DNA of 64,000 bases from Pogonophryne albipinna (taxonomy: Eukaryota; Chordata; Actinopteri; Perciformes; Artedidraconidae), in NCBI GenBank assembly GCA_028583405.1, contig JAPTMU010000117.1:253001-317000 (forward strand), written 5' to 3'. The notes beneath the pieces were generated by a model, which made no database searches, had not been told where the DNA came from, and saw only the letters and a program-made list of their open reading frames with translations. Below are positions 1,624 through 42,300 of this stretch, one piece after another. Each line of letters begins with the position of its first letter. Within the stretch, counting starts at the first letter, position 1. A program made the position numbers and the translations under genes.

Positions 1624-2872
1624 GGGCTGCTCAATTAATCGTATTTTAATCGCGATTATGGCTTAGAACGATTACGAAAACAACGTAATCGAAATAAAAC
1701 GATTTTTTTTTTATTATTATTACTTATTCAGTTGAATTCTACTTAAAGTTCAGGGTCATCAACTGTTAAAAACATACTGTTCAAATGTTTTCATCCAATA
1801 AATTGATGTTTTCAAAGTCAATGAATAATCACATTTAATAATCGTAATTATAATTATTGTTTTAATATACATAATTCTAGATTTGTATCGTTGTTATATA
1901 CTTTACAATGTGCACATTTGTACTATATATATATATTTGTATTCAATTTCTTTATCTTTTCACCCTACATTTTTATTTCACCCCATTTTTTGCAAATGTT
2001 TCCGTAAACTTCATGTTTTTATAAATTATTTTATTTTAAAGTAACTGTGACAAACTGAATTTTCCTCCTTCATGAATTTCGTATTTTAATACTGAAAAGT
2101 AGAAGTAAGGAGTTAAAAGTCGGCCTCAAAACATTTTCCTTTGCAACCACTGGACTAAAATAACGGATTACATTTTCTCGTTTCGTAACTAGGCAGAAAA
2201 ATAAGTTTTCTTAAGTGTCCAATAGAAACAAGCACAGCTTAAATGTATTGGAAAGTGATTATGTAGAGCTTTTCTGAAACCCAAACTCACTCCTGGTATA
2301 ATAATCTCAGTGATCTGTCCGTTCATATTAACCCACTCTGAGCCCCCCCCCCCCCCCCTCCCGTCACTCTGGCCCGTTAAAGCGATCAGTGCTTAATGCC
2401 CTCTCCGAAATGAGCTTTGATCTCGTTAGCGCGACACAAAGCCTCTTTACTGCCAACGATAGGACAAATCGGCTCTGAGAGAGAGAGAGAGAGAGTTATC
2501 AACTGTACACAGAGTGGACCGCACCGCTGCCTCCGGGGGAAGAAGCATCCATACTACAGAGAGACGGGAAAGATAGGAGGAGGAGACAGGAAGGAGACGA
2601 GGAAGGAAAACAAGAGATGACACAGAGGTGGATCTGGGGGGGGGGTGACAGAAGCATTGAAATCGAAATAAGCTCAATATTTCTTAAAGGGGCCGTATGA
2701 TGATCATTCTCAGGATGACATTAGTGATAAGTGTCTCCACTGAGACAGGTTTATTTGCTTAAAGGACCATGTGTCTTGAAAAACACACATTATTCTGCAT
2801 TAGAGAGACAGAGAATATATGAAACGGAATAACACTAAAGTTGAATGAAGTATATTTATTCAAATACTGTTC
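1624..2872. other. Non-genic AT-rich stretch with a MITE end and simple repeats
   Basis: At 1,624 a TAGGGCTGCTCAATTAATCG sequence followed by AATCGCGATTATGG resembles the end of a known type of fish hAT MITE; its other end was not located. The rest holds poly(T), a C-run at 2,343-2,358, a (GA)n run near 2,477-2,495 and a G-run near 2,635-2,645. 2,752-2,872 is homologous, in inverse orientation, to 38,258-38,370, so it is old flank shared by two copies of the next element. No gene is supported. Confidence 0.4.
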
Positions 2873-2876
2873 TTAA

Positions 2877-5440: not shown

Positions 5441-5824
5441 CTCCATGCTTTAATGTTCAAAAAGCTCTTTATCATTCTCATACTGCCTGTGCTGCAGCAC
5501 CTCTTTTCACCCTCTGTCTGAAACCAGAGCCCAGTCTGCTCTGATTGGTTAGCTAGCCGGCTCTGTTGTGATTGGTCAACTGCTTAGATATGTCCCGCAT
5601 CCTTAGCCTATCACGTACAATGTGTTGGACCACTAGCCAATAGGTGCGTGACTGTTACATAGTGATGTCATTATGGTCCAAAACTTTAAGGATTTAAGCC
5701 TTTGCAGACCATTTACATGTCAAATAAAACTATATAACTCACCACATGAAAGGAGAGCCATGGGCCTACATATAGTATACTACAAACTTAACAAAAGAAA
5801 AAAAAAAATTGGTACAGGCCCTCT
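2877..5824 (+). mobile_element. TTAA-flanked MITE with internally amplified terminus
   Basis: The element lies between TTAA at 2,873-2,876 and TTAA at 5,825-5,828. It starts AGAG(T) and ends GGCCCTCT, as in TTAA-targeting (piggyBac/Kolobok-type) non-autonomous transposons. The right part (5,480-5,680), with the GCTGCAGCACCTCTTTTCACC motif block and repeated ATTGG motifs, is matched in reverse by 36,302-36,467 plus 38,212-38,253. The left part is replaced by a 57-bp tandem array that resembles the element's own first 57 bp. It has no coding capacity. Confidence 0.7.
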
Positions 5825-13924: not shown

Positions 13925-16712
13925 AGGTGTTCTTCAACCTGTCGAAGCTGTACAGACAGCCTGCAGCCACTACAGATCAGCCGGGGAAGACTGTCATTGG
14001 TCCCACGGTCCCAAAGCACCTGCAACAGCTCTACGCCCAGAGCTCTACTGAGCTGAAAGCTGAAGAGCAGCTCCAGCTTGCAAAGCTACTGCACACATAT
14101 GAAAGTGTGTTCTCTACTGGCCCTGATGACCTCGGCCGCACTAGCCTGGTGCAGCATGACATCCTAACCAGGTCAGGTGCCCCAGTCAAGCAAACGCCTC
14201 AGAGAAGCAAGAAAGTGCCAACCAGCAGATACAACAGAGCCTGGAGGTAGGACTGGCCCGCCGCAGTAACAGCAGCTGGGTGTCACCTTTAGCTATGGTG
14301 CGCAAAAAGGACGGCACCTACCGCCTCTGCATAGACTATAGAGCCCTAAATGACAGCACTACCACCTCCGTGGCTGAGCCTCTCCACGCCCTGATAAAGA
14401 AGTATGCCCGTTTTCACTGGAGTGAAGAATGCCAGGAATCATTCAACAAGCTCAAGCGTCTGCTAACCACAGCACCAGTTTTGGGTTATCCACTCGACCA
14501 AGGCAGCATGATACTGGACAGATGCAAGTGATGTGGGCATTGGCGCTGTCCTCAGGTTCAGCAGGGCAGAGAGCTTGTGCTGGCCTATGGGAGTCGCAAA
14601 CTATCCAAAACTGAACAGAATTACTGCACTAAACGCAACCCAGTCTCGCGGCATTTCGTGTTATAGTCACGACATTTAATCTATTGATTCGTGTTCACCA
14701 ACACGATTTTCCCCTTCTTTTCGTGTCACACAGAACGATTTTAAAAGCAATGTATTTCTATTGGTAGTGTGTTTCGTGCCTGCAACACGTCTTTTTGTCC
14801 GTTCAGGTCTTGGAAGACCGGAAGCTGTGTCTTCCAACCACCTGACAGCTTGCCAGGTGGTTGGAGAGACTGGGTGAATACAACTTTGAGATTGTTCATC
14901 GGCCTGGCCGGCTACACAGCAACGCAGACAGCCTCTCAAGGAGGCCCTGCCGCGAGTCTTGTCCATGTAAGCTGCCATGCCCCTCCCCTCAGCCAGTGAG
15001 CTTTAGTGATCAGGCGGTGCAGTGCCAGTTGGACTCTGACATCAACCAGGCGATGGTGAGTCCAGTGGGGGTAGAGAGACCCTCAGCTTCCAGAGCAGTG
15101 AGTCCAGAGAAGCTTCACCTGCTGAGGTTGACAATGTAAATTCTGGAATAATCTACCGGACTACGACCAACAACACTACTGGGCTGTTGCAGGCTCAGGA
15201 TGCTGATCCAGACATGCAGCCCAGCTACAAAAACATATTGGAACCAGTGGAAGCGTCTCTACTTCAAAGAAGGAATTCTGGTTAGGCGGTTCTACTGCCT
15301 AGATGACACACAGTTTTATCCACAAGTGGTGCTGCCTCGAGTCTTCCGCCCTGATGTCATGAAACAAATGCATGACGGCCAAATAGGTGGACATTTTGGT
15401 GTGGAGCGCACAGTGGCCCGGCTGCAGACCCGATACTTCTGGTACAGAATGAGAGAAGACGTTGCCCTCTGGTGCCCACCTGTACCAGCTGCACATCCAA
15501 AGCCAGGCCCCGTAAGACACCACAAGCTCCAATGGGCACTGTCAGGGTAGGAGCCCCCATGGAGCGCATCGCCTTGGACATCATGGGGCCCCTGAACGAG
15601 ACAGATCGCAAAAACTGTTATGTGTTTGTGGTACAGGACTATTTTACCAAGTGGGTGGAAGCTTACCCCCTTCCCAACCAGCAGGCTGTACCTGTGGCTG
15701 AAGTGCTGGTTTCAGGGTGGGTGTGTCGTTATGGAGCACCACAGACGCTGCACGGTGATCAAGGCCGAAACTTGGAATCCGAAGTGTTTCAGGAAATGTG
15801 TAAGCTGTTTGGCATTGAGAAAACACGCACAACACCTTTCAGACCTCAATCTGATGGCCCAGTCGAAAGATTTAATGCCACACTACAAAAGATACTGGTC
15901 ACAACAGCTGAGCGCTGCCACTGGGACTGGGACCTCATGATCCCCTATGCTGTTATGGCTTACAGAGCAACCAAGCAGAGTTCAACTGGTTTCACCCCCA
16001 ACTTCATGATGTTTGGCCGGGAAGTGAGCGAGCCGGTGGACCTGGTAGCTGGTCTACCCCAAGACTCTGGCACACTCCCTTCAGCCCCTGAATATGTCCA
16101 GCAGACCCGACAACGCCTGGAGCTGGAGAGGCCCTTGGTGAGTCTGTAAAACGTAGAGACAATACGAAAGAAAAACTGCTGTCGCACACAGTACCATATT
16201 GGTGATGGTGTGTGGTACCTGATTAAAGGAACACGGAGAGACAAAAACAAAGTCAGGAGGTTTCTCCCGTCGTACGAAGGACCATACTTCATTCTAGGAC
16301 ACTTGGATGATCTGGTGTATCGCATCCAGAAAGGTCCAAAGACTAAAGTGAAAGAAGTTCACCATGATCAGCTGAAACACTACCGCTGCCGTGATCCACT
16401 GGACAACGCCTGGGCTGTGGAGCACGCCCCGAGATGGACACCTACGGAGGTTTCGGGCCCTGCCTTGGACATGGATCCTACAGATCCTACCCTGGGTCTA
16501 TCTCAACTGTTCACCGACACTGACACCGCAGCTGAGGAAGGCTCCAGCTTCCAGGAGTGGACACTGCCCTTTCAGTCCCCTCCACTCCTCCGGACTCTTC
16601 TGCCCCTGAGGACATTCAGGTTAGTGGGGGTGGTGTGGCAGAGCAGCACCATCGGAGCCATCATGTTCCTGGGCCACGGACGGGCCGCAATAGAGTATGG
16701 TATGGTATGGTG
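13925..16712 (+). pseudogene. Ty3/gypsy retrotransposon pol remnant
   Basis: Several plus-strand frames, in pol order, show a broken Ty3/gypsy polyprotein. 13,950-14,250: linker ahead of reverse transcriptase. 14,280-14,350: start of RT with VRKKDGTYRLCIDYRALND. 14,375-14,510: an RNase H-side segment (FHWSEECQESFNKLK). 14,860-14,950: the RNase H-integrase linker (FEIVHRPGRLHSNADSLSR). 15,350-15,480: integrase zinc region (GGHFGVERTVARLQTRYFW). 15,556-16,140: integrase core with DIMGPL, HGDQGRN and PVERFNATLQ. 16,210-16,380: GPY/F-type tail (SYEGPYFI). The polymerase centre with the YxDD box is deleted between RALND and SVAEP, gag and protease are absent, and stops and frameshifts separate the parts. 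It is inactive. Confidence 0.88.
14641..14805. mobile_element. Short unclassified insertion inside the gypsy remnant
   Basis: Between two gypsy segments lies a block beginning CAGTCTCGCGGCATTTCGTG and containing ACGACATTTAATC, ACACGATTTTCCCC and TTTCGTGCCTGCAACACG. It has no homology to pol and carries repeated TTTCGTG motifs. I take it for a short non-autonomous element. Ends are not exact; a gypsy-like segment near 14,836-14,872 also appears locally duplicated. Confidence 0.45.
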
Positions 16713-16984
16713 AGTGGGTGAGGAAATAAGCCCCACAGTTAAAGGACTGTTCATGCACCGTTATGTTGTTTACTAATGTTCAAGCTAAATGTTATTGTTT
16801 CATATGTTCATACATAAAAAGAAAAAAAATACTTGAGGAGAGCAGGTTGATAACCATATGGGACTAAAGTTATATTTCTGTCTTTGATATTTCCATTTAA
16901 AGTTGTCATTTTAATGGAGAATTTAAGTTTTGAATGCCTTCTGACTGCTATTTTAGAGCTCAGCTATTAATGCCCTTTTCAGGG

Positions 16985-20894: not shown

Positions 20895-21065
20895 TAAATG
20901 ATCAAGTCACCTCAAGTCAGAAGGCTCAAGTCCAAGTCAAGTCCCGAGTCATTGGTGTTCAAGTCCAAGTCGAGTCGCAAGTGTTTTGTGATTTTGTCAA
21001 GTCGAGTCTCAAGTCATCAAATTGGTGACTCGAGTCCAAGTCATGTGACTCGAGTCCACACCTCT
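20895..21065. mobile_element. Half of a hAT MITE (CAGAGGTGTGGACTCGAG type)
   Basis: The sequence is made of CAAGTC/GAGTCCAAGTC motifs and ends GACTCGAGTCCACACCTCTG, which is the end of a very common fish MITE. The opposite end is missing. It abuts the inverted 57-bp array directly, so the junction probably marks a rearrangement. Confidence 0.75.
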
Positions 21066-21542
21066 GCTACATACTGATATACACCTGAACATCAGCAGGA
21101 GAGAACTCTTTAAAGTAGAGACACTACATACTGATATACACCTGAACATCAGCAGGAGAGAACTCTTTAAAGTAGAGACACTACATACTGATATACACCT
21201 GAACATCAGCAGGAGAGGACTCTTTAAAGTAGAGACACTACATACTGATATACACCTGAACATCAGCAGGAGAGGACTCTTTAAAGTAGAGACACTACAT
21301 ACTGATATACACCTGAACATCAGCAGGAGAGGACTCTTTAAAGTAGAGACACTACATACTGATATACACCTGAACATCAGCAGGAGAGGACTCTTTAAAG
21401 TAGAGACACTACATACTGATATACACCTGAACATCAGCAGGAGAGGACTCTTTAAAGTAGAGACACTACATACTGATATACACCTGAACATCAGCTGGAG
21501 AGGACTCTTTAAAGTAGAGACACTACATACTGATATACACCT
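21066..21542 (-). repeat. Second 57-bp array, inverted, about 8 copies
   Basis: The unit is the reverse complement of that at 2,877-5,440, with almost no variants (AGAGAACTC versus AGAGGACTC, CAGCTGG versus CAGCAGG). It lies between the broken hAT MITE and the start of duplication unit A, whose first bases CCTGTCCTTTGTTTCC are also the first bases of unit B. Confidence 0.92.
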
Positions 21543-21979
21543 GTCCTTTGTTTCCAATTTTGTTATGTATGATTATACATTTCACATTTACACCAATTAA
21601 AAAATATCCACTAGTTTTTCATTTATTATTCTGCATTATAAATGATTGCAGTTGAAATGCAATGGGTGTTTGAATCCCTGTGATATTTGTGGAAATAAAA
21701 TAACAATAAATAACAATAAAATAAAAAGCAAATGCAGAAAAGTGCTAGGACTTTTTTTAAACATGTAAATCAAATATTTCTATAATACAGAACAATTAAG
21801 TTGTATTCTTATTTATTTATAGTAGGAAAAAACTCACAAAATGCACTAAATCAACATTCACTGTCATTCCATGAGATCTCATTTCCTTAACTTTCACTCC
21901 AACCGTCATGTTGATATAGCCCCGCCTACTTTGTACGCCTACGCCTGCTTATAGGTTGTCTCTCATGTCCGTCACTCCT

Positions 21980-22118
21980 TTCAGCCAATCAAATGAGAAG
22001 AGGCGGGACATGACGCACCTTGGGGTATTAAATAAAGGCACGCTGCGTTGACTGTGTTAATCCTGTTGTGTTTTCTGTTTGATAGCAGCAAGGATTAAAG
22101 TCGTCAAAAGATATCCAG
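21980..22118 (+). promoter_or_regulatory. Promoter and untranslated exon 1 of tetraspanin A
   Basis: A CCAAT box (CAGCCAATCAAATG) near 21,981, a GC-type GAGGCGGGAC, and a TATA-like TATTAAATAAAGG at 22,026 precede a short untranslated exon ending ATATCCAG|GTATTT (22,118). The same elements at the same spacing occur in unit B at 38,940-39,078. The transcription start is inferred. Confidence 0.6.
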
Positions 22119-22367
22119 GTATTTATAACATTTTAAAGCTTATGTTGTTTTTTTGGCTGCATTACTTTGATATATTAACAGGAAGAAGCAATGATTTAAA
22201 CGTATTAAAACTGGTGTAATATGGCATTTACACGTAAAATATAACACAAAGTGGTTGTTATTTATATGTGTGTATTTGTTTAATAGGTAGAAGCTTGCGT
22301 TGGAAAAGGTTTGCATAAGTCAGGAAATAATTTGTTTTTTTCTTATATTTACAGTAAAATAAGCATC

Positions 22368-25300
22368 ATGGATGATTGTGGCCGTCTCTGCAAATACACG
22401 CTGTTTATTTTAAACCTCATCTTTGCAGTAAGTGTGTTAAAAATGATGATCCTTCCTATTTTAATTCTTCACTTTTTTTTTTACTTTATTGTGTTCTGAA
22501 GTTTTAAAGCTGTGCAAAACTAATGGTTGTAGGTTTTTCTGAATGTGTTAGGAAGGTAACATCACTTGGAGTTCATCTCAATTGAATATTTCACCTCCTC
22601 CTTTCCCTCACTCGCGTCCCTTCCTTCCGTCTTAGCTCCGCCAGATGCAAGCGAGAGACACGAGGAAGAGACGCGAGGACAGAGGAGTCCTCAGGTATTA
22701 ATTGGGATGTCCTCGTTCACTCCAGCGTCACCATGAACCACGCCCTTTACTTCTGGTGCGCACAGTTTTATCACCTGTCACTGCACTTCCCTCCACATAA
22801 ATCCCTTCAAACCTGATTTAGTTTGAAATGATTTCGTCCATCTCTTTTATTATAGTTTTCTATGTAATATTTTCGGTCCCGTATTTGTTTTTCCAGGTAT
22901 AACATTTCATTTAAGTTATAATTATAATCACAACAATAATAATAATTGATGGATTCATTTCATTATGGTAGGCTATTTGAACTTGTTTCAGATCAACTTT
23001 TGTATTGGATGTTGTTATTTAATTTGTCCTACAGAAGAGAGACACAAATCACTAAAATATGTATTAGTTATGCTACCCGTATTTGTATATATCCTAAATG
23101 TTTGACTTTCTGTGGGTGTACCACACATGCATCAAAAACCACAAGTAAGAACTGTAAGTTATTCTTTTATAATCAAACATTATTATTGAATTTGTAAGTA
23201 TATTTCACACACTTTAATGTTTTTATAGAGTATGATATGATCTCTAATATATTTTACTCTTAATGAAGCACTGTAGGAGTCGAGGAGGGACATTGAGATG
23301 AACCTTTGGACTCAAATGCACGAGTTCGCTGTTCGAAAGGTCTTTACTTAAAGGTCACCTATCATGCTATTTTTAGGCAATAGCATAGGTCTCAGATAAT
23401 ATATAGAAATATATAAAAAACATGTCTATGAAGTGTTTTGCTCAAAATACCAAACAGGTCACCCATTATAGCCATGCCTCATATCCCTCTATTTCACTTC
23501 CTGTTTCAAAAGTGCTGGTTCTGGGTATAAAGCTTTAAAAAAACAATGTATATCATCGCCATATCATGTTCCAAACCACTTCAAGGATTATTTCTTAAAC
23601 AGTATGAAGCTCAAATACTTTTTCTCTCTCAGGTTTACCACAAGGTGAGTTCTTTTTTATTTCCTGCTTCTTCACACACATGCTCTCTCCAGTACAGGTT
23701 AGCTCTGAGTGTTAGCGATGCTTGCTAATGTAAACAAAGACTATATTACGTCCAAAACAGTCGGGCATTGTTTCTGATAGCAACGTTTCTGATAGTGGCG
23801 AGGGTCTGCAGCATTGCCGATATGACGTCAAATCGGACGCAAATCTGGATCAGCTCCGTTGTTCCCCCGTTTTTAGAGATTTGGGTACGGAGGAAAAGAG
23901 AGAGGGTTTTATTTTCTGACGCTGCGTGAGTTCCCTGACGCACCAGGGACACATGTTGATGTATACAAGACATCAAAAACTGCATTTTGCATGATAGGTC
24001 CCCTTTAAGATAAAGATAAATTACAAAAAAAACCACTCATGACGTAAAAAAGCAAACTGCAAACATGGGAACAAATAAACTCGACTGAATACTAGCAACA
24101 AAAGTCTCTTGGCGTGAGAAGCTGGCTCTCTTGTTGACACAAGGCACAAGACGAACTGGCACAGGATAAAGGGAGACGAGGACTATATATAAACGAGGTA
24201 ATGGGACACGGGTGGCCACAATCAAGGGAGGGGCTGACAACCACACGGGGAGGAAGACACACAAGGGCAGGAGAGCTCTGAAACGAGAGAGAAAGGTAAG
24301 TACAAAATAGATCAGGAAGTGCAGTGAAAGGACTAGACAGGTGAACAAAGAGACTTGATAAACATAAATCAAACATGAAACAAATAACATGAACCTGATT
24401 AACTAAACATGACATAAATTAGCAGACATGACGGGATGTTACAGAATGTCGTGTTAAAGTTGTTGGTGTGGTTAATATATTTAAAGATAAAATGTTGCCT
24501 TGTGGTTGTGAGTATTTTGTGGTTTGACAGGTGTTAGTGTGCCTCTACGTCCCTGCTGGTTTCATTCTGCACTTTTACATGACACCTTTTATACCACACA
24601 GCGTGAACTAACCTGGAAATACAGCAGCGGCCGAAACCATAAATCTGAATGTGAAACCGTGTGAAGCTTTGTGTCTGATGCACATTCACACTGTGGTTGT
24701 TCTTTGTGTTTTTCTGTGGTTGTGCAGCTGGTGGGGTTTGTGTTCCTGGGTCTGGGCCTGTGGCTGAGGTTCAGCGATAGCACCAGAGCTTTCTTTGAAA
24801 TTGAGGAATTCAACTCAAGCGCATTCGTTATTGGTCAGTACATATGTGGCATGATTTCTCCAGAATAAACATATTGTCTGTCTGAAACATATTTAATCAC
24901 AGATCTTTATATATTTTTTAAAGCGGTGACTGTCCTGATTATCACGGGCTTGGTGATGCTGATCGTCGTCGTGTTTGGATTTTACGGCGCCTGCAACGAG
25001 AAACGATGCGCTCTGCTAACGGTGAGACTTCTTAACACAGTGACTTCTGTGTACACAGCCATTTCATGTGATTGCAAAAGCCTGCCTTACACAACTGGCT
25101 TACTGTAACTAGTGCAGAACTCACTTTTTGATATGGTGTTTCCTTTGTCTAATATGCAAACATAACAACCTGAAAAGGAGCATTATGTTCTCAGTTTCCT
25201 ATTGAGAAAGTTCCACATGCGAGCGAGGAACGGAGAATGTATAAATATCCTTCAGTTTCTCAAGAAGTCGGCTGGGTTTACTAACGGCTTCCTCTCTGTG

Positions 25301-28300
25301 TAGTTTTCGGTCCTGGTGTCCATCCTGGCAGTTGCTCTGGTTGTTTTTGGAGTGATTGCTTATTCCATCAAAGAGGAGGTAAGATGGAAGGAAAACAAAC
25401 AAGAGAAGAATAAATGTTTAAAATGCAAATACTTTATGTATGTTCATGAAATTGTGTTTTATTTTTCAGATTGGATTGAGAGTTGCAGAGTTCTACTCGA
25501 GCATATATTTGCTGTATGTTGCTAACAGCGACCCAGTTCTTGCTGTCACTCTCACATTCATCCAAAAACTGGTAAGCACTTTATTGTATTTGTAATCTTA
25601 ATCATTGGAATTGGAAGAAGATTACAATTGTAATTCAAAATTGTTGTTTGTCTTATATTGTTTCAGACTTGAGATGGCAACATGAATTACTCCTCACACC
25701 GAACCAGAGTATTTTTTTATAAAATGTAAAATAAAAGACAGTATGAAATAAATGATTAAAATGTAATAAATTGTGTAAATACACAAATGAACCAACATTT
25801 TCTTTAAATAATTGATTTGAAAAATAATTTAATTTAATTTAAAAGTGCTATTTCACTAATAAATAACCCCAACAAAAACATATGTTATCAATAAAAACTC
25901 TCCAAAAATATAACTAAAATGAGTATCTAATAATATATTTTGAGTTTAAAAAATCTCTTAATTCATTGCCTTATTTATATAATTGAAAATGTGTCCAAAT
26001 GACAGTATATTTTCTTATTACTCATGTCTTTATTTACTTCTACATTGATTATATAATGTGAGATGTAAAATATGTGGTTGTGATTCTTATTTATTTAATT
26101 GTCAGTGTTTTAAATCTCCCTTCATCTCGTTCCTCTGTAGCTTCAGTGCTGTGGATTGACCGGGGTGACGTTGTTAAACGTTGCTAAGGAAACCTGTCCC
26201 GACCCAGACTCCTTTTGGGAACACATCAAGATGGATGTAAGTTACTGTAATGCCACTTAGCAGTTTACTGTCGTAATTTACCCTGTTGGCATGCTAATTT
26301 ACTAGGACAAATCCAAGCTTGTATATGTGTCCAGTATTGTATGAATTTGAGTTACGACATAAAGACACAATGTGGGTTAACTTGTGTTTAGTTAAGCCCC
26401 AAAGACTTTAAAGGGTTAGGGTTAGGGTAATGTTGTGAATTGAGTGGCCCATGGTGGTGGTGGGGTTATGGTATGGGCAGGCGTATGTTATGGACGACAA
26501 ACACAGGTCACTCGATTCACAACATTACCCTACCCCTACCCCTACCCCTACCCCTCACACCAGATACTGACTGGTTTTCGGACCCCCCCAGACCCCCCCA
26601 ATAAAGCAAAACTGCACGTTTCAGAGTGGCCTTTTATTGTGGCCAGCCTAAGGCACACCTGTGCAATAATCATGCTGTCTAATCAGCATCTTGATATGCC
26701 ACACCTGTGAGGTGGGATGGATTATCTCGGCAAAGGAGAAGTGCTCACTATCACAGATTTTTTCAGATTTGTGAACAATATTTGAGAGAAATGGTTATTT
26801 TGTGTATATAGAAAATGTTTTAGATCTTTGAGTTCATCTCATGAAAAATGGGAGCAAAAACAAAAGTGTTGCGTTTATATTTTTGTTCAGTGTACAAACA
26901 TAGTTAGCATGCTAGCAGTTAACTATGACAAAACTAAGTTTGTATATCCCTCTAGTATTGTAGGATTTTGAGTTATTATGTGTTCACTTAAAACACTATT
27001 ACAATGTAGGTTAACGTGTGTGTAAACTGACCAATAATTAACATCTATTTTTCATATTTTCCTTCTAATATTCGCCACGTTTACTATAATAATTATTCTT
27101 GTTAGCATGCTAGCAGTTAACTGTGACAAAACTAAGTTTGTATATCTTTCAAGTATCGTTTGATTTTGAGTTATTATGTGTTCACTTAAAGACACATATG
27201 TTTACGTGTGTTTGAAACGGATACAAAAAACACCCCTTTCCTCCTTCTCTTAGAATATTTAGTTTTAACCCATATTACATTACCATTGACTGTTAGCAGG
27301 CTCAATGTCGAGTCAAGGCAACATAATAAAGGAGACGGTAGCCGAAGTAATCAAAAGTAAGAATTTAATCAATAATTACCACCAGGGTTGAACAAAGGGA
27401 ATATCAAGTAAGAACAGACAAGAACACATACTGCACAGACAGGATCAGCCCCAGACAAAGGGGAAGGCAGAATACTTATACATGAGGAAATGACGAGACA
27501 AGACACACCTGGGTTAATTACAAATGGGTACACCTGGAGGGGAAACGATAAGGACTACAAAACCATAACAGGAAACTACAGCTAGACATGACACATCACA
27601 CTAGGAGCGCCTGATCAGGGCACAAACACATAACACCCCCACACCCAACTTTATGTCCATAACCCCAAGGCGAAATGGGGGAATGAACATAAACAGAAGA
27701 GGGAAACACGAAACAATAATACTGTCAATAGGATTCACCAGAGGCTCCCTCACATAATATGGCTTAATCCTATTAACATGACACAAGCGAGTCTTCCGCT
27801 CACGATCCGGTGTCTCGATCAGGTAGTCCAAATCCCCTACTTTCTCCTTTGCATTGTGATCTCTCTGTAGCATTTTCACGTCTCCGTTCTCGGTCTTTGT
27901 ATGGCAGCTAGCACGGTCCCTGACCATGGAGGAAATGGAGGCAGAGGTAGCGGGATCCGGGTGTGGATGTGGTGCTGTGGTGTTGTGGAGTAGACTGCTG
28001 CTGCTGTTTCCATTGATCCGACCGAGGAACTCAGGCGGAGACAGAGACCCTCCTGAACACACCGTCTGGCTGGAGCGATGGTACATCTTGGGTCTCTCCT
28101 TCACCCACTCGCCATCTTTGTGCTTCTTCTTCTTCTTCTTCTTGAGTTTTTCCAGGAGGAGTTCTTCATCAGAAACAGCTTTTGGCTTCTCGTTAGATTC
28201 TTTCTCTGGGGAAATCACTTCTCCGTTTTCTCGTTCAATGTCATGTACAGGTGGCAGTTTGTGATTGTTGCACTCTTTGCCCTTTTCCTTCTTCTTTTCT

Positions 28301-31195
28301 CTGTCTTTCTCCTTTATGTGGCCTTTTTTACCATAATGGAAACACTCACGCATTTCTCCCCTCATTCCCCGCTCAGCAACCTCGCCCACACTGCCACCGC
28401 CAGAGGCCACAGGCCCGTCACCCAAGCCCCACCTCGGTCTACTCTTCACACTGCGCACGGGATAATTAGGTCTGTCAAAGAGCACTTTGTGCGTCAACAC
28501 GAACTCATCCGCAAGACTCGCAGCCACCGAGCACTCAGTCACCTTATGTTCATTAATGTACATCGCCACATTATTGGGCAAACAATAGGACTTAAACTCC
28601 TCCAGAAGCACGAGTTCCCGCATCCTAGCCAAAGTGTCCACCTTCTCCGACGCGCACCAACGATCAAACACCAGCTCCTTCTCGTAAGCAAACTCCACGT
28701 AGGTCTGCGCATTGTTCTTTCTAAGGGCGCGAAACCTCTGCCTATACGCCTCCGGCACAAGCTCGTAAGCCCTAAGGATAGCAGCCTTCACCATGGCGTA
28801 ATCCTGGGTGTTTGGGCAAAGTGACGCGTAAACGTGTTGTGCTTTCCCGGTGAGTGCGCTCTGGAGAAGTAATGTCCACTGGTCATTAGGCCATTTCAGA
28901 GTTGTGGCTATATTTTCGAACATAGAAAAATATTTGTCAACATCCTTCTCTGAAAATTGCGGGACCAGACGTAGGTGCCTAGTAACATCGAACCTAGCTT
29001 CAAGATGCACTGCCCGCGCCTCTACCCCAAGCCTTCCAAGCTCAAGCTCATGCACACGCCTACGTTCTGCCTCCTCCGCTTCCCGAGCGTGCCTACGTTC
29101 TGCCTCCTCCGCTTCCCGAGCGTGCCTACGTTCTGCCTCCTCCGCTTCCCGAGCGCATAACCGCTCTGCATGTCTCAGCTGCTCGAATTCAAACTCTAGT
29201 TCCATCTTCCTCAGCAAAACCTGGTTCTCCGAAACCGGGTCACATGTGACTACCTCCTCCTCCTCAGGTTTGCCCACAGAGCACTCCATAATCTCCTTGG
29301 CGGTCAAAGCCTCCACCAGCGCTAACCGCTGCTGCTGCTTTTTCATGCTCGGGGCAAGCCTGACACCGTAATGCTCTGCTATCCCCGATAATTCCTCCTT
29401 AGTGCACAAGCCCAACAAGTCGACCGTTGGCCTAGCCACAAAATCATCTACCCTCCCAGGCATACCTGCCCTAGTACCGTCGCCCCGGGGAGGAAGAAAC
29501 TAAAGAGCCAACTCCGCTTCCACCAGCATATACGACCAACCAATTAACATATCCACAAAACCAAACAACACCGGCTTCCCCCTACACGTCTGTACAGTCT
29601 GTTCTTAATAACTCTGGCCATCTTTATATTTATATTTAGTCTCTTTGTTGCTATCTTAGACTGTTAGCATGCTAGCAGTTAGCTATTACGAAACTAAGTT
29701 TGTTTATCTGTTCAGTGTTGTAAGATTTTGAGTTATCTTTTTTAAGACACTATAACATGTGGGTTTACATGTCTGGCAACAAATAAACATATTCTTTCCC
29801 TCTTTTTCTTAGATTATTTGCCCCATTGAATATCTTAGTTAGCCTATCTTAGCCTGTTAGCATGCTAGCAATTAACTCTTATCTCGCCAGTGTTGTGGGA
29901 TTTTGAGTTACGATCTGTATTAACTTTAGAAATAAGTACATTCTAGGTTTATATCTGTTAAACCGACAATAATTCCCTTTTTTCTTGGTGCTACAGGCTT
30001 GTCCTGGGGTGATTGTTGATGTCTTCAACAGAAATTCACCGGTGGTGATTGGCCTGTTCGTCGGAACTGGAGTTATATTGGTAAGCAGATGTGTTGCTGC
30101 TGTTGCATGCTTCAAAATGTAAATGCAGTAAATACATTGCTAAAATAGGCTGGTGAATAACATTTACCCAAAAAATGTAAATATATATCACCTTTCTTTT
30201 TGTATTTACTGTATAGTCACATGTTTACTTAAAAAACATGTTAACTAATACAGTTAAGCACAAAGGACAACAATATGCAAATGACAGCACAGTGTACTCT
30301 ACCTTAAAACAATTAATATAAAGGCTTTTTGTTTATTTATTATTAAAAAAATTATCAAACAATTACATATTAGAATTTTCGCCACGTTTACTGTCTCAGT
30401 TTAGCCTGTTAGCATCTTAGCACTTAACTATGACATGAATCGGTTTATTTGCAAAGACATAAGTTACAAGAGAAATAAAAATAATTTCTAATAAATATTT
30501 AAATTAACCTTTGATTGGACTGTCTAAGAACCCTGAAATAACCTTACTTTTATTGCATACAGGATATCTTAAATGATAATTGTATGTCGATGTTTATTTT
30601 TGATTCGACTTATGTTCTGTAATAGCATACAATCTGAATCTGCAAAGTAACGAAAGCTGTTGAACAGTTCCTCAAAATTGTACACAGGTACAGTACCTTA
30701 ATGTATTTTATAACAGTCCACTGCACTCTACACTTCACACAAAGCAGTATAACGAGTATCTAGCATTGAATTAGCATTAACTGTTACGCAATTAGCAAAT
30801 CGTGGACACAATAAAGAGTAGCGAGTCTTGTGTATCTTGTTGAATAAAACAGCTCCATACATTTTCAACATGCTTCATTTTGTCGTCTCTCGTTGTTCAT
30901 AAAGTTATTACTTGTGGTCTAACCTATTCCCTCCTTTCTCTCTTTTAAAAAAAACTCACTTTTCACTCTCTTCATCAATGCTCCCCAAAAGCTCCTGGCT
31001 TTGATTTGTAGCTCAATCCTTACAAACAAGCTCAAGACCCCACCCACTCCTCAGTACATCATCCGGACTCAGCCTCCACCATCTCAGCTTGAATGTATCC
31101 CCACTTCCACCTCCATTTCCTACTCGTACCCCGAACAGAAGCCGGTGGTCTTGACCCCTCTGACTGTGGCCTACAACCCAGTGGTTATAACTTAG
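22368..31195 (+). CDS. CD9-like tetraspanin, copy A (8 coding exons, 274 aa)
   Basis: Coding exons: 22,368-22,427; 24,728-24,833; 24,924-25,021; 25,304-25,378; 25,470-25,571; 26,141-26,236; 29,997-30,080; 30,992-31,195. All introns are GT-AG and phases agree. The product is a four-pass membrane protein: TM1 about residues 11-33, small loop with sequon NSS, TM2 about 57-78, CNEKRC loop, TM3 about 86-109, large loop about 110-194, TM4 about 195-216. The large loop has the tetraspanin CCG motif (QCCGLTG, residue 150) and two further cysteines (TCPD 166, ACPG 181), the four-cysteine pattern of the CD9/CD81/TSPAN2 group; LWLRF, EFYSSIY and CPGVIVDVF fit CD9. Tetraspanins organise partner proteins in membrane microdomains. 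The cytoplasmic tail of about 58 residues is Pro/Ser/Tyr-rich, much longer than in CD9. ATG context is good (A at -3, G at +4). Confidence 0.9.
22546..24443 (-). mobile_element. LTR-type element in intron of tetraspanin A, TSD GAATG
   Basis: 1,898 bp starting TGTTAGGAAGG and ending GGATGTTACA, flanked by GAATG at 22,541-22,545 and 24,444-24,448. Unit B is uninterrupted at this point (TTTCTGAGGTCGTGTTAAAG, 39,564). TG...CA ends with a 5-bp target duplication indicate an LTR retrotransposon or derivative. The minus orientation contains a TATATATAG motif near 24,185-24,195. No protein-coding domain is seen; a TTAA MITE is nested in it. Confidence 0.75.
23352..24004. mobile_element. TTAA MITE family 1, copy 2
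   Basis: 653 bp between TTAA at 23,348-23,351 and 24,005-24,008, with AGGTCACCTATCATGC and GCATGATAGGTCCCCT ends. It lies inside the LTR-type element of unit A and is absent from unit B. Confidence 0.85.
26405..26896. mobile_element. Tc1/mariner-like remnant with telomere-like repeats
   Basis: A short frame reads HGGGGVMVWAGVCYG, the VMVW motif region of Tc1/mariner transposases. The 3' part ends TTTTTGTTCAGTGTA, the usual end of this fish element. AGGGTTAGGGTA at 26,414 and (CCCTAC)n at 26,527-26,556 bracket the remnant. Most of the transposase is gone. Specific to unit A. Confidence 0.65.
26897..27298. repeat. Intronic tandem repeat with TTAGCATGCTAGC core, unit A (part 1)
   Basis: Segments beginning GTTAGCATGCTAGCAGTTAAC recur about every 160-200 bp, each followed by AAAACTAAGTTTGTATAT, TTTTGAGTTATTATGTGTTCAC and GCCACGTTTACT. 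They continue at 29,609-29,960 after the gypsy element and match the same intron in unit B, so they predate the duplication. Confidence 0.75.
27601..29463 (-). CDS. SCAN-type Gag fused to an RSBN1/RSBN1L-like segment and an integrase tail (620 aa)
   Basis: An unbroken frame. Residues 1-90: N-terminal Gag region. 101-136: charged coiled coil made of a repeated REAEEAERRHA unit. About 165-330: a capsid-like domain matching Gmr1-like gypsy Gag, the ancestor of SCAN domains (VPEAYRQRFR; ELVLLEEFKSYCLP). 374-387: a damaged CCHC knuckle (C374, Tyr in place of the second Cys, H382, Asp in place of the last). About 385-541: a segment unlike gypsy but like RSBN1/RSBN1L (EKLKKKKKKKHKDGE and RPKMYHRSSQTVCSG). 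About 543-570: the end of gypsy integrase (DYLIETPDRERKTRLCHVNR). The rest has no recognised domain. The frame is antisense to the tetraspanin gene. It may be a chimeric non-autonomous retroelement protein; expression is unknown. Confidence 0.75.
   Translation of the reverse strand: MPGRVDDFVARPTVDLLGLCTKEELSGIAEHYGVRLAPSMKKQQQRLALVEALTAKEIMECSVGKPEEEEVVTCDPVSENQVLLRKMELEFEFEQLRHAERLCAREAEEAERRHAREAEEAERRHAREAEEAERRRVHELELGRLGVEARAVHLEARFDVTRHLRLVPQFSEKDVDKYFSMFENIATTLKWPNDQWTLLLQSALTGKAQHVYASLCPNTQDYAMVKAAILRAYELVPEAYRQRFRALRKNNAQTYVEFAYEKELVFDRWCASEKVDTLARMRELVLLEEFKSYCLPNNVAMYINEHKVTECSVAASLADEFVLTHKVLFDRPNYPVRSVKSRPRWGLGDGPVASGGGSVGEVAERGMRGEMRECFHYGKKGHIKEKDREKKKEKGKECNNHKLPPVHDIERENGEVISPEKESNEKPKAVSDEELLLEKLKKKKKKKHKDGEWVKERPKMYHRSSQTVCSGGSLSPPEFLGRINGNSSSSLLHNTTAPHPHPDPATSASISSMVRDRASCHTKTENGDVKMLQRDHNAKEKVGDLDYLIETPDRERKTRLCHVNRIKPYYVREPLVNPIDSIIVSCFPLLFMFIPPFRLGVMDIKLGVGVLCVCALIRRS
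27840..28315 (-). other. Captured host-gene segment (RSBN1L-like) between 11-bp direct repeats
   Basis: The segment not explained by gypsy lies between two identical 11-mers, CTTTCTCCTTT on the plus strand, at 27,840-27,850 and 28,305-28,315, spaced 465 bp (155 codons). The order of its parts seems permuted: in RSBN1L, as I recall it, the ENGxVK...RD part precedes the KEKxREKKK part and the poly-Lys/KMY part. Here ENGDVKMLQRDHNAKEK comes last and EKDREKKKEK first. Confidence 0.6.
29609..29960. repeat. Intronic TTAGCATGCTAGC repeat, unit A (part 2)
   Basis: Continuation of the repeat at 26,897-27,298 on the far side of the gypsy insertion, with cores at about 29,666 and 29,857, up to the last-but-one tetraspanin exon. 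Confidence 0.7.
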
Positions 31196-31559: not shown

Positions 31560-33482
31560 AAACCCGGTGCTGTTGGAGCTGATCTGAACAATAACAAGTC
31601 CATCTCCAACCTATCCTTCATCTCCAAAACTCTTGAAAGAGTGGTCGCCAGTCAACTTCAGTCCCACCTCGACACAAACAACCTCCATGAACCATTCCAA
31701 TCCGGTTTCCGCCCAAAACACAGTTCTGAAACAGCCCTCGTCAAAATCACAAACGATCTCCTCCGTGCGGCTGACTCTGGACTGCTCACCATCCTCATCC
31801 TCCTCGACCTCACATCTGCCTTTGACACCATCTCCCACCCACTGCTCATCAAACGTCTGGCAGACATTGGGATCACTGGTGCTGCACTCTCCTGGTTTAC
31901 ATCCTACCTTACAGACAGAAAACAGTATATACAACTCAATAATCACAAGTCCAGCTGCTCCACTGTTTCACATGGTGTCCCCCAGGGGTCAGATTTGGTT
32001 CCACTCCTCTTCATCATTTACCTCCTCCCCCCTGGCTCCATCCTCCGTCACCATGAGGTCCAATTTCACTGTTATGCTGACGACACACAGGTCTACATAT
32101 CCACCAAACCCAATACTGTCCTGCCCCCCACCTCTCTCACCACCTGCCTCCAGGACATCCGGAGCAGGATGAGCCGTAACTTCCTCAAGCTCAACGGGAG
32201 CAAAACTGAGGCCCTGTTTGTTGGCTCCAAATCCACCCTCTCCAAAGCTCCACCCCCCTCTGCCCCAGACCTACTCTACCCAGGTCAAGAGCCTTGGTGT
32301 CATTCTGGACTGCTCCTTCTCATTTGCACCCCACATAAAAAAATCACCCGGACTGCATTCTTTCATATACGAAACATCTCCTGACTCCGCCCACACCTTA
32401 CTCAATCCAGTACTGAAGTCCTGGTTCATGCATTCGTCACATCCCGTATTGACTACTGTAATACCATCCTCAGGCCTTCCCATCAAACTCCTCAATAAAC
32501 TCCAAATCATTGAGAACTCTGCCGTCCGGATCATGACCCGTACCAAATCCTCTGACCACATCACCCCCATCATCCTCTGACCACATCAGCCCCATCCTCT
32601 AACCACATCAGCCCCATCCTCTGACCACATCAGCCCCATCATCCTCTGACCACATCAGCCCCATCCTCTAACCACATCAGCCCCATCCTCTGACCACATC
32701 AGCCCCATCCTCTAACCACATCACCCCCATCCTCTGACCACATCAGCCCCATCCTCTGACTACATCACCCTCATCCTCTGACCACATCAGCCCCATTGTC
32801 TGACCACATCAGCCCCATCCTCTGACATCAGCCCCATCCTCTGACTACATCACCCTCATCCTCTGACCACATCAGCCCCATCCTCTGACCACATCAGCCC
32901 CATCCTCTGACCACATCACCCCCATCCTCTGACCACATCACCCCCATCCTCTGACCACATCACCCCCATCCTCTGACCACATCACCCCCATCCTCTGACC
33001 ACATCACCCCCATCCTCATCCATCTGCATTGGCTACCTGTAAAATACCGGAGAGACTTCAAAACCCTCCTGCTCACATTCAAAGCCGTCCACAACCTGGC
33101 CCCCACCTATCTGGCTGACCTCCTACACCCCCTCTCGCTCCCTCCGCTCCGCCTCTGCTGGCCTGCTAACTGTCCCGACCCCACGCCTAGTCACGATGGG
33201 GGCTCGGGCTTTTAGCTGCACTGCTCCCAAACTATGGAACCCTCTCCCCCTTCACATCCGACAGTCTGACACAATCACCACATTCAAGTCCCTCCTTAAA
33301 AAACACCTGTTCAGATCAGCCTACTCACTGAAGTACTACATGTTCCCTGTTTCCCAACATGTCCCCTGTTACGGTCCTTTTGTACTGTCTTAAACCTTTC
33401 CTTATAATATTTTATGAATTGTAAGGTGTCCTTGGGTGCTTTGAAAGGCGCCTCTAAATATAATGAATTATTATTTATTATT
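31560..33482 (+). mobile_element. 5'-truncated L2-like LINE with reverse transcriptase remnant
   Basis: 31,600-32,240 encodes an RT: SKTLERVVASQL, PFQSGFRPKHSSETALVK, LDLTSAFDTISH, GVPQGS and the active-site CYADDTQVYI. The C-terminal part follows in other frames (VKSLGVILDCSFSF; LPIKLLNKLQIIENSAVRI; LHWLPVKYRRDFKTLL). It ends in an ATT-rich tail near 33,465-33,482. Endonuclease is missing, frames shift several times, and a 22-bp array has expanded inside. Located downstream of the tetraspanin A stop and absent from unit B. Confidence 0.88.
32560..33016. repeat. 22-bp array, about 20 copies, inside the LINE
   Basis: The unit is CATCCTCTGACCACATCACC plus two C, with CAGCC and TAACC variants. 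It is the LINE's own codons for SSDHITPI, normally present once before LHWLP, amplified in place. Confidence 0.9.
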
Positions 33483-38211: not shown

Positions 38212-38939
38212 GCTGCAGCACAGGCAACCTGAAATGAGCAGAATATGACCTCTTTAAGTCCAGTATTTGAGTAGATCTACTTAATTCAACTTTAGTTTTC
38301 ATATATTCTCTGTTTCTTTATGGGTGAATAATGCGTGTTTTACAGGAAAATACGTGTGGTTTATTATTATTGTATGAGCCAAAGGCAAATATAAAAATCA
38401 TCAAAGCCAGGAGGAAAATATTTGCATGAAGGTCCCTGAGATAAAATCAGGGTTTGACAGACAAAAACACATTGTGTCAGATGTCATTACCTGTCCTTTG
38501 TTTCCAATTGTGTTATGATTATATATTTCACATTTACACCAATTAAAAAATATCCACTACTAGTTTTTCATTTACTATTCTTGCATTATAAATTGTTTGA
38601 ATACCTGTGATATTTGTGTAAATTAAATACAAAATCAAACAGACAAGACATCAAAAAAAGTAAAATAAATAACAATAAAATAAAAAGTAAATGCATAAAA
38701 GTGCTATGGCTTGTTTTAAACATGTAAATCATATATTTCTTTAATTAAGAACAATTAAGTTGTATTCTTATTTATTTATAGTAGGAAAAAACTCTTAAAA
38801 TGCACAAAATCAACATTCACTGTCATTCCATGAGATCCCATTTCCTTAACTTTCACTCCAACCGTCATGTTCATATAGCCCCGCCTACTTTGTACGCCTA
38901 CGCCTGCTTATAGGTTGTCTCTCATATCCCTCACTCCTT

Positions 38940-39078
38940 TCAGCCAATCAAATGAGAAGAGGCGGGACATGACGCACGTTGGGGGTATTAAATAAAGTCA
39001 CGCTGCGTCGACTGTGTTAATCCTGTTGTGTTTTCTGTTTGATAGCAGCAAGGATTAAAGTCGTCAAAAGATATCCAG
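38940..39078 (+). promoter_or_regulatory. Promoter and untranslated exon 1 of tetraspanin B
   Basis: CAGCCAATCAAATG at 38,941, GAGGCGGGAC, and TATTAAATAAAG at 38,986, with an untranslated exon ending ATATCCAG|GTATTT at 39,078. Nearly identical to copy A over the whole stretch. Confidence 0.6.
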
Positions 39079-39225
39079 GTATTTATAACATTTTAAAGCT
39101 CATGCCGTTTTTTTGGCTGCATTACTTTGATATATTAATAAGATAAAACGCTGTTGTAATGATTTAAACGTGTTAAAACGTAATATGGCATCTAGACGTA
39201 AAATGTAACACTAACTGGTTGTTAT

Positions 39226-39290
39226 TTGTATGTATGTATGTATGTATGTATGTATGTCTGTATGTATGTACGTATGTATGTATGTATGTG
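39226..39290. repeat. (TATG)n microsatellite in intron 1 of tetraspanin B
   Basis: Tetranucleotide run with CTG and ACG interruptions; copy A has only one or two units at this point. Confidence 0.9.
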
Positions 39291-39385
39291 TGTGTTAGTT
39301 ATATAGGTAGAAGCTTGCATTAGAAAAGGCATGCATAAGTGAGAAAATAACGTGCTTTTCTTGTATTTACAGTAAAATAAGCATC

Positions 39386-42300
39386 ATGGCTCTGGACGGA
39401 TGTGGCCTCCTCTGCAAATACACGCTGTTCATTTTCAACCTCATCTTTGCGGTAAGTGGTTTAATAATTATGATACTTCATATTTAATTCTTCCCTTTTT
39501 TTGTTTACTTTATAGTGTTCTGTGCACGTTTTAACGCTGTGAATAACTAATGGTTTGTAAGTGTTTCTGAGGTCGTGTTAAAGTTGTTGTTGTGTTTGGG
39601 TCGGCACACTTTGGTTTCGTTTCTGCGGAATACCAGCTTGCTGAGACTTTCATTTCCTGAGTTCTTGCAGGTATAGCGCCTCTGTGGTCACATCCAGGAA
39701 GGAGAAAGGAAAACAACATCTTTTAAAAAAGGCGTGTCCAAACATTTCCCCCGAGGGCCACATCAAGAAACATATACTAATGGCTGGGCCCCTCACTAGA
39801 AGTTCATTGAGCAAAATCAATCAAATGTAGGTCAATTAGGCCTGATAATTGAATATGCTTTAAGAAACAAACCGCCTACACCACAGGGTTTCATTTATGT
39901 AATTACAGAAAGTGTTGGCAGCTCATTCCTTAAAACAGAAGCCTCAGACTGCTCATAAGGGGAAATATAACAGATTTGTTAGAAGATGTTTTCAACTATA
40001 GAATGAATCTATTGGAAAAGTGGGCTTAGTCACACATAATATATGTTTACATTTATATTTAAGAAGTACACTATAAGAAAAGCACAAATTTCATGTGTGG
40101 GCCGTATTTAATTATACTTTTAGAATTTGATTTTTTTTACATGAAGGTTTATGTACAAATTAACTGTATATTAAAGGTGGGGTATGTCATTTATTTCAGA
40201 AACACTTTTTGTTATATCCCATGGAATGCTCTTAACATCCTGATAGCAATGAATATCTGAAGTGCTTTGACAATAAATACATGAAAAAATATCATCTGTG
40301 GAAGCTGTGGCGCTGTAAAAAGCACGACCAATCATCTGAGCCGGCTAAAGTAACTGGATGGCCTACCTGCCTGTCAGCCTTCCATCTGTGCACAAACTGA
40401 TCTCGTGCCCTCATTGGTCATGTGCGCGTTCGTGTGTGTTGGAGGCGGGGCTCTGTGAGGAAGTGGCAGATTTTTTCCGGTTAAGTATTTTCAGATTTTA
40501 GCGCACTCGAGCTGCTTTCTCCAAAATGACCTACCCCACCTTTAATAACACATTTAGGAATTAAATTAAAACTGTGCACATAGTAATATAATATATAACG
40601 ACAATAAAACTGTTAACATGTGTTTACCACAATATAAGCATTAGTGTATTGGTATTAATAAAGATATTAATGATAAAAAAATGGATTATTGATCTTTTTT
40701 TATTCAAATCTATATCCCTATGCAAGTATTTTTTTTAATTACTTTTTTACATTTTTAAATTGCACTGCTGTAAGTAAAATAACATAGCGATTAAGCATGG
40801 TATTCTCTGTTTAGCACAATTATTCATATCAATTCAGATCTAATTGTGTCACAGTTTGTGTAGAAGCTGGGCCCAGCAGTCAGAACAAGATCTCAGTACT
40901 TTTATTTTGTTTGTCTGTGCTTTTTCTCTGCTATCATGTTGCCTTGTGGTTGTGAGTATTTTGTGGTCTGACAGGTGTTAGTGCGCCTCTACGTCCCTGC
41001 TGGTTTCATTCTGTACTTTTACATAACACCTTTTATACCACACAGCGTGAACTAACCTGGAAATACAGCAGCGGCTGAAACCATAAATCTGAATGTGAAA
41101 CCGTGTGAAGCTTCCTGTCTGATGCACATTCACACTGTGGTTGTTCTTTGTGTTTTTCTGTGGTTGTGCAGCTGGTGGGGTTTGTGTTCCTGGGTCTGGG
41201 CCTGTGGCTGAGGTTCAGCAATAGCACCAGAGCTATCTTTCAATTCGAGACCCTCAACTCAAGCGCATTCGTTATTGGTCAGTACATATGTGGCATGATT
41301 TCACCTGAATACACATATTGTGTGTCTGAAACATGTTTACTCACAGATTTTTATATCTTTTTTTAAAGCGGTGATTGTCCTGATTATCACGGGGTCGGTG
41401 ATGCTGATCGTGGTCGTGTTTGGAGACTACGGCGCCTGCAACGAGAAACGATGCGCTCTGCAAATAGTGAGATTTCCGTGTATACAGCCATATAGTATAT
41501 CGAATATACAGCCATTTTATGTGATTGCAAAAGCCTGCCTTACACAACTGGCTTACTGTTGTATAAGTGCAGAACTCACTGTGTGATTGAGTTCTTTGTA
41601 ACCAAATGTCTCTCAGAGGGGCGTGGGGAGGGGCTCCTTATTTTCATCTAAAGTAACAGACAGAGAATCAGCACTTTGGAAACAGGGCTGAAACAGAGGG
41701 GATTATGGGTAATGCTGCAATGATCTGTTTGGTGTTTCGAGCCAAACACTTCAGAGACATGTTTTGTATATATCTGAGACCTGTAATATATTGATGAAAA
41801 ACAGTGGAATAGGGACCTCTAAATGATCTATTCTCTGCTGCAATTTCATCGTTATTACTTCACTTCCTGACACCTGCTGGAAGACAGATATTTTCTGCAA
41901 ATGTAGAACCACAAAGTATCATTACTCAGTTTCCTATTTAGAAAGTTCCACATGCGAGCGAGGAACGGAGAATGTATAAATATCCTTCAGTTTCTCAAGA
42001 AATCAGCTGGGTTTACTAACGGCTTCCTCTCTGTGTAGTTTTCAGTCCTGGTGTCCATCCTCGCAGGAGCTGTGGTTGTTTTTGGAGTGATTGCTTATTC
42101 CAAGAAGGTGGAGGTAAGATGGAAGGAAAACAAACAAGAGAAGAATAAATGTTTAAAATGAATACTTTATGTATGTTCATGAATTTGTTTTATTTTTCAG
42201 ATTGGATTGAGAATGGGGGAATTCTACTCGAGCATATATTTGCTGTATGTTGCTCACGGCGACCCAGTTCTTGCTGTCACTCTCACATTCATCCAAAAAC

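Follow-up and report, generated by a model that had tools for sequence, protein, structure and literature searches.

In acute transforming retroviruses, a host segment is fused to Gag in place of pol, and these viruses are defective and helper-dependent. Gmr1-like gypsy elements are linked with the origin of SCAN. Reverse transcriptases are known to make blunt end-to-end jumps, and a permuted order of host exons is expected from the copying of a circle. According to excerpts of two articles, the LTR element Bs1 of maize contains a hybrid ORF with host gene segments and has captured several host genes (PMC13317346, PMC5408686). Excerpts of the same articles describe LTR-mediated retroposition in animals, including zebrafish, by template switching between element RNA and mRNA at microsimilarities (PMC5408686, PMC13317346). 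An intronless host segment between LTRs in metazoans is credited to Tan et al. 2016 in passages of PMC5408686, PMC8232201, and PMC8854603, and circRNA-derived retrocopies or pseudogenes are credited to Dong et al. 2016 in a passage of PMC5408686. In the portions of the literature examined, host gene capture by animal LTR elements is described through retrocopies. Searches of the open-access literature yielded no capture of RSBN1L or of a golgin, no amplified capsid–host hybrid family in fish, and no permuted LTR-element capture; within this open-access scope such absence is weak evidence.

The window (the whole 64,000-nucleotide stretch of DNA that was analyzed) contains a 620-codon ORF that spans exactly positions 27601–29463 of the minus strand, as given in a preliminary description, with its stop codon within the 3′ LTR. 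The order of its parts is a SCAN-type gypsy Gag, an RSBN1L segment, and an integrase C-terminus. The Gag part (residues 1–382; 28318–29463, minus strand) consists of an N-terminal helical domain, a long coiled coil with a 33-nt tandem repeat, and a capsid. The SCAN or capsid C-terminal domain (residues 237–325; 28489–28755, minus strand) matches Pfam PF02023 with an E value of 1.4e-13, in agreement with the SCAN-type start that had been proposed for the frame. The integrase C-terminal tail (VGDLDYLIETPDRERKTRLCHVNRIKP...) is found at 27760–27839 (minus strand), and PF22938 is matched in the ORF and in the parental piece L064. The Pfam match to Integrase_p58_C at residues 540–568 has an E value of 7e-6 and a score of 26.5 bits, slightly below the cutoff of 27; together with the tail shared with L064, it bears out the suggested return to the end of integrase. 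Protease, reverse transcriptase (RT), and most of integrase are missing from the chimeras; the preliminary description has them as replaced.

Ray-finned RSBN1L proteins matched ORF residues 383–545 in a database search (84 proteins at E ≤ 0.01, best E value 2e-56). The best match is 75% identical across 72% of this region, and the names shown for the 84 proteins are either RSBN1-family names or "hypothetical", "uncharacterized", or "unnamed". The middle of the frame had been described as RSBN1/RSBN1L-like; the similarity lies far above low-complexity background, and residues 383–541 are RSBN1L and not gypsy Pol. A low-complexity match is ruled out by the E value of 2e-56 and by a DNA identity of about 98% with the donor exons in most copies. 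The conserved C-terminal domain of the RSBN1/KDM9 histone demethylase family is absent from the ORF, which holds donor cDNA 438–914 only; the downstream donor exons, found by genome search, are not in the ORF. A comparison of the ORF with PDB sequences gave two matches, the better with an E value of 0.13.

The same genome (1.07 Gb in 861 contigs) contains the donor, an RSBN1L-like gene on C9, which is one of the contigs (C9, C22, and C81) on which loci matched the C-terminal part of an RSBN1L protein. In the C9 gene, introns separate exon 1, with 490 coding nt, from exon 2, with 126 nt, and exon 2 from exon 3. The insert carries the exon 1–exon 2 and exon 2–exon 3 joins, both without an intron, and because two donor introns are missing from the element, the source of the insert is identified as RNA (mRNA). 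The insert is 96.0–99.3% identical to the donor exons, gaps not counted, in 31 copies (the window copy, 20 fetched copies, and 10 probes). Six probes of an older subfamily (L046, L050, L055, L057, L060, and L061; 381–479 nt each) are 98.5–99.3% identical to the donor and retain host-like features that the modern copies have lost.

ORF residues 383–517 align with host residues ~166–309, and residues 518–541 (ASCHTKTENGDV...) align with host residues ~142–165. The second stretch lies upstream of the first in the host protein, and the insert is therefore permuted. In donor cDNA coordinates, the order within the element is 501–914 followed by 438–511, that is, exon 2, exon 3, the end of exon 1, and the start of exon 2. 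The first piece (27914–28315, minus strand; cDNA 501–914) extends from AAAGGAG in exon 2 to GGACCG in exon 3, with the intronless exon 2–exon 3 join at 28200/28199. The second piece (27840–27913, minus strand; cDNA 438–511) contains the end of exon 1 and exon 2 as far as GAGAAAG, with the exon 1–exon 2 join at 27861/27860. The insert spans a single 477-nt lap and an additional 11-nt overlap, AAAGGAGAAAG; since 477 nt equals 159 codons, it is in frame.

The 5′ junction (28307–28315, minus strand) shows a 9-nt microhomology, AAAGGAGAA, that occurs both in the zinc-knuckle sequence of the parental Gag and in exon 2 of the host gene. This microhomology was foretold from an insert-free icefish Gag (P0086, Chaenocephalus aceratus), and the uninterrupted parental zinc-knuckle motif was then found at 48 sites in the genome (reversed control, 0). 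The 3′ junction (27840–27846, minus strand) shows a 7-nt microhomology, GAGAAAG, that is common to host exon 2 and the parental integrase. Random breakpoints attain 9 nt at a frequency of 4e-5 and 7 nt at a frequency of 6e-4. The inner junction (27913–27914, minus strand) joins GGACCG of exon 3 to TGCTAGC of exon 1 with 0 nt of homology. It is blunt, it lies within both exons, and it has the dinucleotides GC/CC in place of GT/AG. A canonical back-splice is ruled out at this position, since there are no splice dinucleotides and the join is not at exon ends. As a 33-nt pattern, the inner junction occurs at 99 genome sites, which take in tandemly duplicated segments (96 exact; reversed control, 0), and this number rules out a single-copy artifact.

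The insert begins and ends in the same 11-nt tract of exon 2, and the permuted exon order with a single lap that is expected of a circRNA-derived insert is present. The donor may have been a circular 477-nt RNA of RSBN1L exons 1–3, closed by a blunt, non-canonical event such as RNA ligation or a cryptic reaction. RT would have entered at the purine tract of exon 2, gone around once, met its own start, and left at the same tract. If entry and exit were independent and uniform, the chance of their coincidence over exactly one lap would be about 22/477, or 0.05. Within the lap, the two exon joins are those of normal splicing, and the contrast of a blunt inner join with outer joins that show homology points to events of two kinds. 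Such a donor is nevertheless held to be the less probable of two sources, as the inner join within exons 3 and 1 is no canonical back-splice and one purine tract that matches both Gag and integrase can explain the coincidence without a circle.

The other source is linear. Starting in exon 2, RT would have copied one mRNA fragment as far as exon 1 and then jumped end-to-end, without homology, to another RSBN1L fragment, whose 3′ end was a break in exon 3. From exon 2 of this second fragment it would have passed into Gag, and the three switches would have produced the permuted order by accident. Blunt jumps of this kind are known, and switching between LTR elements and mRNA led by microsimilarity is a published mechanism according to an excerpt of PMC5408686. 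Matches of the required length are not rare, since 17 7-mers are shared with the integrase piece and 11 9-mer positions with the Gag-PR piece, 8 of them in one CAG run. The coincidence of entry and exit must in this case have come about by chance or via the common purine tract. The linear three-switch account has slightly better than even odds and is somewhat more likely than a circular donor: it needs no unusual RNA, whereas a circle accounts for the coinciding entry and exit.

With either donor, the switch would have taken place during minus-strand synthesis by the RT of a gypsy element with a SCAN-type Gag (Gmr1-like). Having reached GAGAAAG in the integrase RNA, this enzyme would have changed over to a spliced RSBN1L RNA, gone through a single 477-nt lap of it, and returned to the element at AAAGGAGAA, within the zinc knuckle of Gag. 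The part between the junctions, with protease and most of integrase, would have been lost, and RT was probably removed by a further 3′ deletion. The reading frame of the hybrid remained open, and the LTRs, the primer-binding site (PBS) leader, and the purine tract, which it would need in cis, were retained. Parental enzymes would presumably have moved the hybrid in trans, giving the 99 detectable junction sites. We infer the order of these template switches, the mobilization in trans, and current activity. Transduction of host mRNA by an LTR element is indicated by the loss of introns, the junction microhomology, and the existence of an uninterrupted parental-type lineage; the same features, with an intron-bearing donor in the same genome, uphold the host gene capture proposed in the preliminary description. 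Four features go beyond that description: the order is permuted, there are approximately 100 copies, the zinc knuckle is broken, and GOLGA4 was captured as well. We assign a probability of about 0.87 to an origin of the chimera by template-switch transduction of host mRNA into a SCAN-Gag gypsy element followed by spread in trans.

The copy in the window is a 5′-truncated chimeric LTR element (27273–29620, minus strand) without the 5′ LTR and the leader of ~454 nt. In BLASTN comparisons with 20 fetched copies, the homology begins at 29620 in all 20 and ends at 27256–27273, and no second match within the window was obtained with the 5′ LTR and leader taken from a complete copy. The 3′ LTR (TGTTATGT...GTAATA; 363 nt) was located at 27273–27635 (minus strand) by comparison with the fetched copies. 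It is directly preceded by a purine-rich tract (27636–27652, minus strand) that resembles a polypurine tract and probably functions as one. The fetched copies correspond to ranks 2–23 among 71 scored places, minus rank 19 (which has a stop) and rank 22. They are 3.07–3.19 kb long with LTRs of 362–364 nt (one 3′ LTR has 8 additional nt), and all 20 contain two LTRs and a PBS beginning with TGGGGGCTCG, which we take to resemble a tRNA-Pro site. The leader aligned as a single piece in 18 of the 20. The LTR pairs differ by 11 substitutions summed over the 20 pairs; 13 pairs have none, one of these with an 8-nt gap. The 5-bp target-site duplications are perfect in 19 copies and have one mismatch in the other. 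At an assumed neutral rate of ~3e-9 per site per year, the insertions would be a few hundred thousand years old on average. The chimera is a young, non-autonomous, Gag-only LTR retrotransposon.

The open frame and the confident helical model of Gag, with capsids as the first structural matches, are also what would be seen if the fusion had become a new host gene like the SCAN or PEG10 genes and were no longer mobile. This explanation is very improbable in light of the 99 junction sites, the LTRs, the target-site duplications, and the near-identical LTR pairs, and as a general explanation a domesticated gene is contradicted by these hallmarks of a mobile element. Some hybrid copies lie in duplicated segments. 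At C1:5144138–5171313, four RSBN1L-hybrid copies ~8.35 kb apart form a tandem array of an element-containing segment. Another segmental duplication is found at C13:20332855–20401878, where there are five primer sites, several of them 12.2 kb apart, and three hybrids with identical match scores.

Other repetitive sequences are present in the window. Arrays of a 57-bp minisatellite are located at 2860–5521 and 20953–21636; the first is open on both strands (873 and 875 aa), and its Pfam matches to Lipoprotein_3 and TetR_C_29 are probably due to chance. A gypsy-type integrase remnant at 15472–16713 (PF00665, E value 1.6e-11) has a C-terminal reading unlike that of the chimeric ORF, and a reverse transcriptase fragment at 31641–32384 (PF00078, E value 2.6e-28) is LINE-like by eye. 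Direct repeat blocks at 21694–22498 and 38653–39522 are 82–93% identical and ~17 kb apart. A proline-rich repetitive ORF of 1073 aa with HPYPFPYYYFPHI units at 59808–63029 (minus strand) has no Pfam match at E ≤ 0.01. No tRNA was found in a scan of the window.

The parental piece L045 reads Gag, PR, and the zinc-binding region of integrase with no RT between them; RT was seen in a separate copy (L054). RT-bearing relatives were recognized by translation (L047) or by translation and Pfam (L054). A close relative of L045 is an Antarctic icefish Gag, with 95% identity across 441 aa. The parental integrase tail VREKVGDLDYL was read in all three fetched pieces, with the DNA taken from L064. Three of the 18 GOLGA4-free zinc-knuckle sites were read further, and all three run into integrase. 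There are 139 matches to the primer site in the genome. Among the 100 listed, 48 adjoin an RSBN1L hybrid, 31 adjoin an uninterrupted knuckle, and 21 adjoin neither. Short probes were used for 18 of these 21; the other three are in the C1 tandem array. Among the 18 places probed are ten hybrids with RSBN1L, one with GOLGA4 (L062), the two RT-bearing relatives (L047 and L054), a Gag stretch (L052) that is a hybrid place by the inner-junction count, an integrase-tail stretch (L063), two places without similarity (L049 and L051), and one that is largely N (L058). No third captured gene was seen among these 18 places. On these figures, there are more RSBN1L hybrids (99) than GOLGA4 hybrids (33, a lower bound) or uninterrupted copies (18, counted by the zinc-knuckle motif, so that copies with a decayed motif would escape).

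Four loci were fetched at the parental zinc-knuckle motif, and in three of them (L042, L043, and L044) an intact knuckle is followed by a coiled-coil segment. The 10 proteins that match this segment (best E value 8e-55) each contain a GRIP domain, and both of the specifically named matches are Golgin subfamily A member 4; a comparison with PDB sequences gave no match at E ≤ 0.01. The segment occurs at no fewer than 34 distinct places in its own genome, 33 of them outside the host gene and some of them fragments, with 150 of 239 candidates scored. In the host GOLGA4 gene on C1 the match is broken into exons, and the one host intron that was read is missing from the element. Judged from these sequences, the insert is a capture of spliced GOLGA4 (golgin-245) mRNA by the same lineage. 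At its 5′ join, the only common sequence is GCT. The insert is present at 30 of the 48 zinc-knuckle sites and absent from 18, and in the copies read the RSBN1L and GOLGA4 captures sit in separate sublineages. Places of this sister family include C1:34108888, C7:43606485, and C12:4121186, in addition to L042–L044 and L062. The inserts seem longer and more host-like in some GOLGA4 copies, for instance on C491 and at C12:4121672, whose open frames measure 802 and 817 aa. The best reading of both captures is repeated template-switch transduction of host mRNAs (RSBN1L and GOLGA4) by one LTR lineage.

The ORF is open in all 21 copies examined, which were drawn from the best-scoring ones, and encodes 597–625 aa. 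The 33-nt tandem repeat in the Gag coiled coil (29058–29155) varies in copy number among otherwise near-identical copies, and despite this variation the 21 ORFs stay in frame. The search for ORF copies gave 97 match rows, 8 of them with an in-frame stop. This sample favors intact copies because 71 of 5195 candidates were scored and the fetched copies were of the top ranks. The values of pN/pS are 0.59, 0.42, and 0.31 for the Gag, insert, and tail portions, respectively. Purifying selection was not detected in the 21 ORFs, for which the counts of changes are not significantly different from neutral (p = 0.24, 0.07, and 0.32, in the same order).

The host sequence had been said to begin after the zinc knuckle. 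RSBN1L sequence is found there; the knuckle itself is broken, and this had been overlooked. In all 21 ORFs the second Cys is changed to Tyr and the last Cys is replaced at the junction, and the older-subfamily copy L050 retains the second Cys. The insert has a net charge of +8 and contains KLKKKKKKKHK, versus −9 for Gag residues 1–370. AlphaFold predicted confident helices over most of residues 1–325 and disorder in the insert and tail. The first five Foldseek matches are to Arc, PNMA2, and MLV capsids (probabilities of 0.77–0.99, none at E ≤ 0.001), and the predicted structure is only suggestive of a capsid. The RSBN1L segment could have been selected for better packaging of RNA by Gag or for nuclear access, and the lost knuckle, the basic and disordered insert, and the excess of RSBN1L hybrids (99 sites) over parental knuckle motifs (48 sites) are in keeping with selection of this kind. 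It is considered unlikely, as purifying selection on the insert is not significant (p 0.07) and GOLGA4 hybrids have spread too. The RSBN1L residues need not be functional, because in the sister family that carries GOLGA4 the knuckle is intact and the insert quite unlike this one, and that family spread as well. That the Lys-rich disordered segment replaces the destroyed knuckle as a basic tail for nucleic-acid binding or nuclear targeting is weakly inferred and rather doubtful; the alternative is a tolerated in-frame passenger.

For the family as a whole, it can be proposed tentatively that a circular host RNA was copied exactly once, that the capsid–RSBN1L hybrid then became the most numerous member, and that the lineage is a serial transducer of vertebrate host mRNAs (RSBN1L and GOLGA4). 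A single genome shows the capture together with its parental lineage, the donor gene, an intermediate subfamily, and recent spread, with breakpoints that are readable to the base. Together these provide a natural record of template switching by RT, and possibly of RT copying a circle. The family shows that a Gag hybrid can become more numerous than the element from which it arose, and it makes testable whether a basic segment of host origin can take over the role of the nucleocapsid zinc knuckle of a retroelement.

The chimeras share the SCAN-type Gag of Gmr1-like gypsy elements, and the parental piece L045 has the Gag-PR-integrase order without RT in between; unlike those elements, the chimeras are devoid of PR, RT, and most of integrase. 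As in acute transforming retroviruses, a Gag–host fusion replaces pol, and dependence on a helper is probable. The lineage differs from these viruses in being that of a retrotransposon, and what was captured comes from a demethylase-family gene, as a part that is predicted to be disordered and lacks the C-terminal domain. The permuted order of host exons is a likeness to circRNA-derived pseudogenes, whereas here the junction is away from exon ends and splice dinucleotides and the copy resides inside a mobile LTR element. As in Bs1, a segment of spliced host mRNA is found inside an element while the donor is retained with its introns, for RSBN1L (C9) and for GOLGA4 (C1). In contrast to maize Bs1, the element is a SCAN-Gag gypsy of a fish, the insert is a permuted full lap, the near-identical hybrid is present at 99 sites, and the two captured genes belong to separate sublineages in the copies read. 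With LTR-mediated retroposition, as described in the excerpts cited above, the RSBN1L capture has in common the switching at microsimilarities and the intronless host segment between LTRs; what resulted here is itself a mobile family of many copies, in which the host segment is rotated and the fusion to Gag is in frame.
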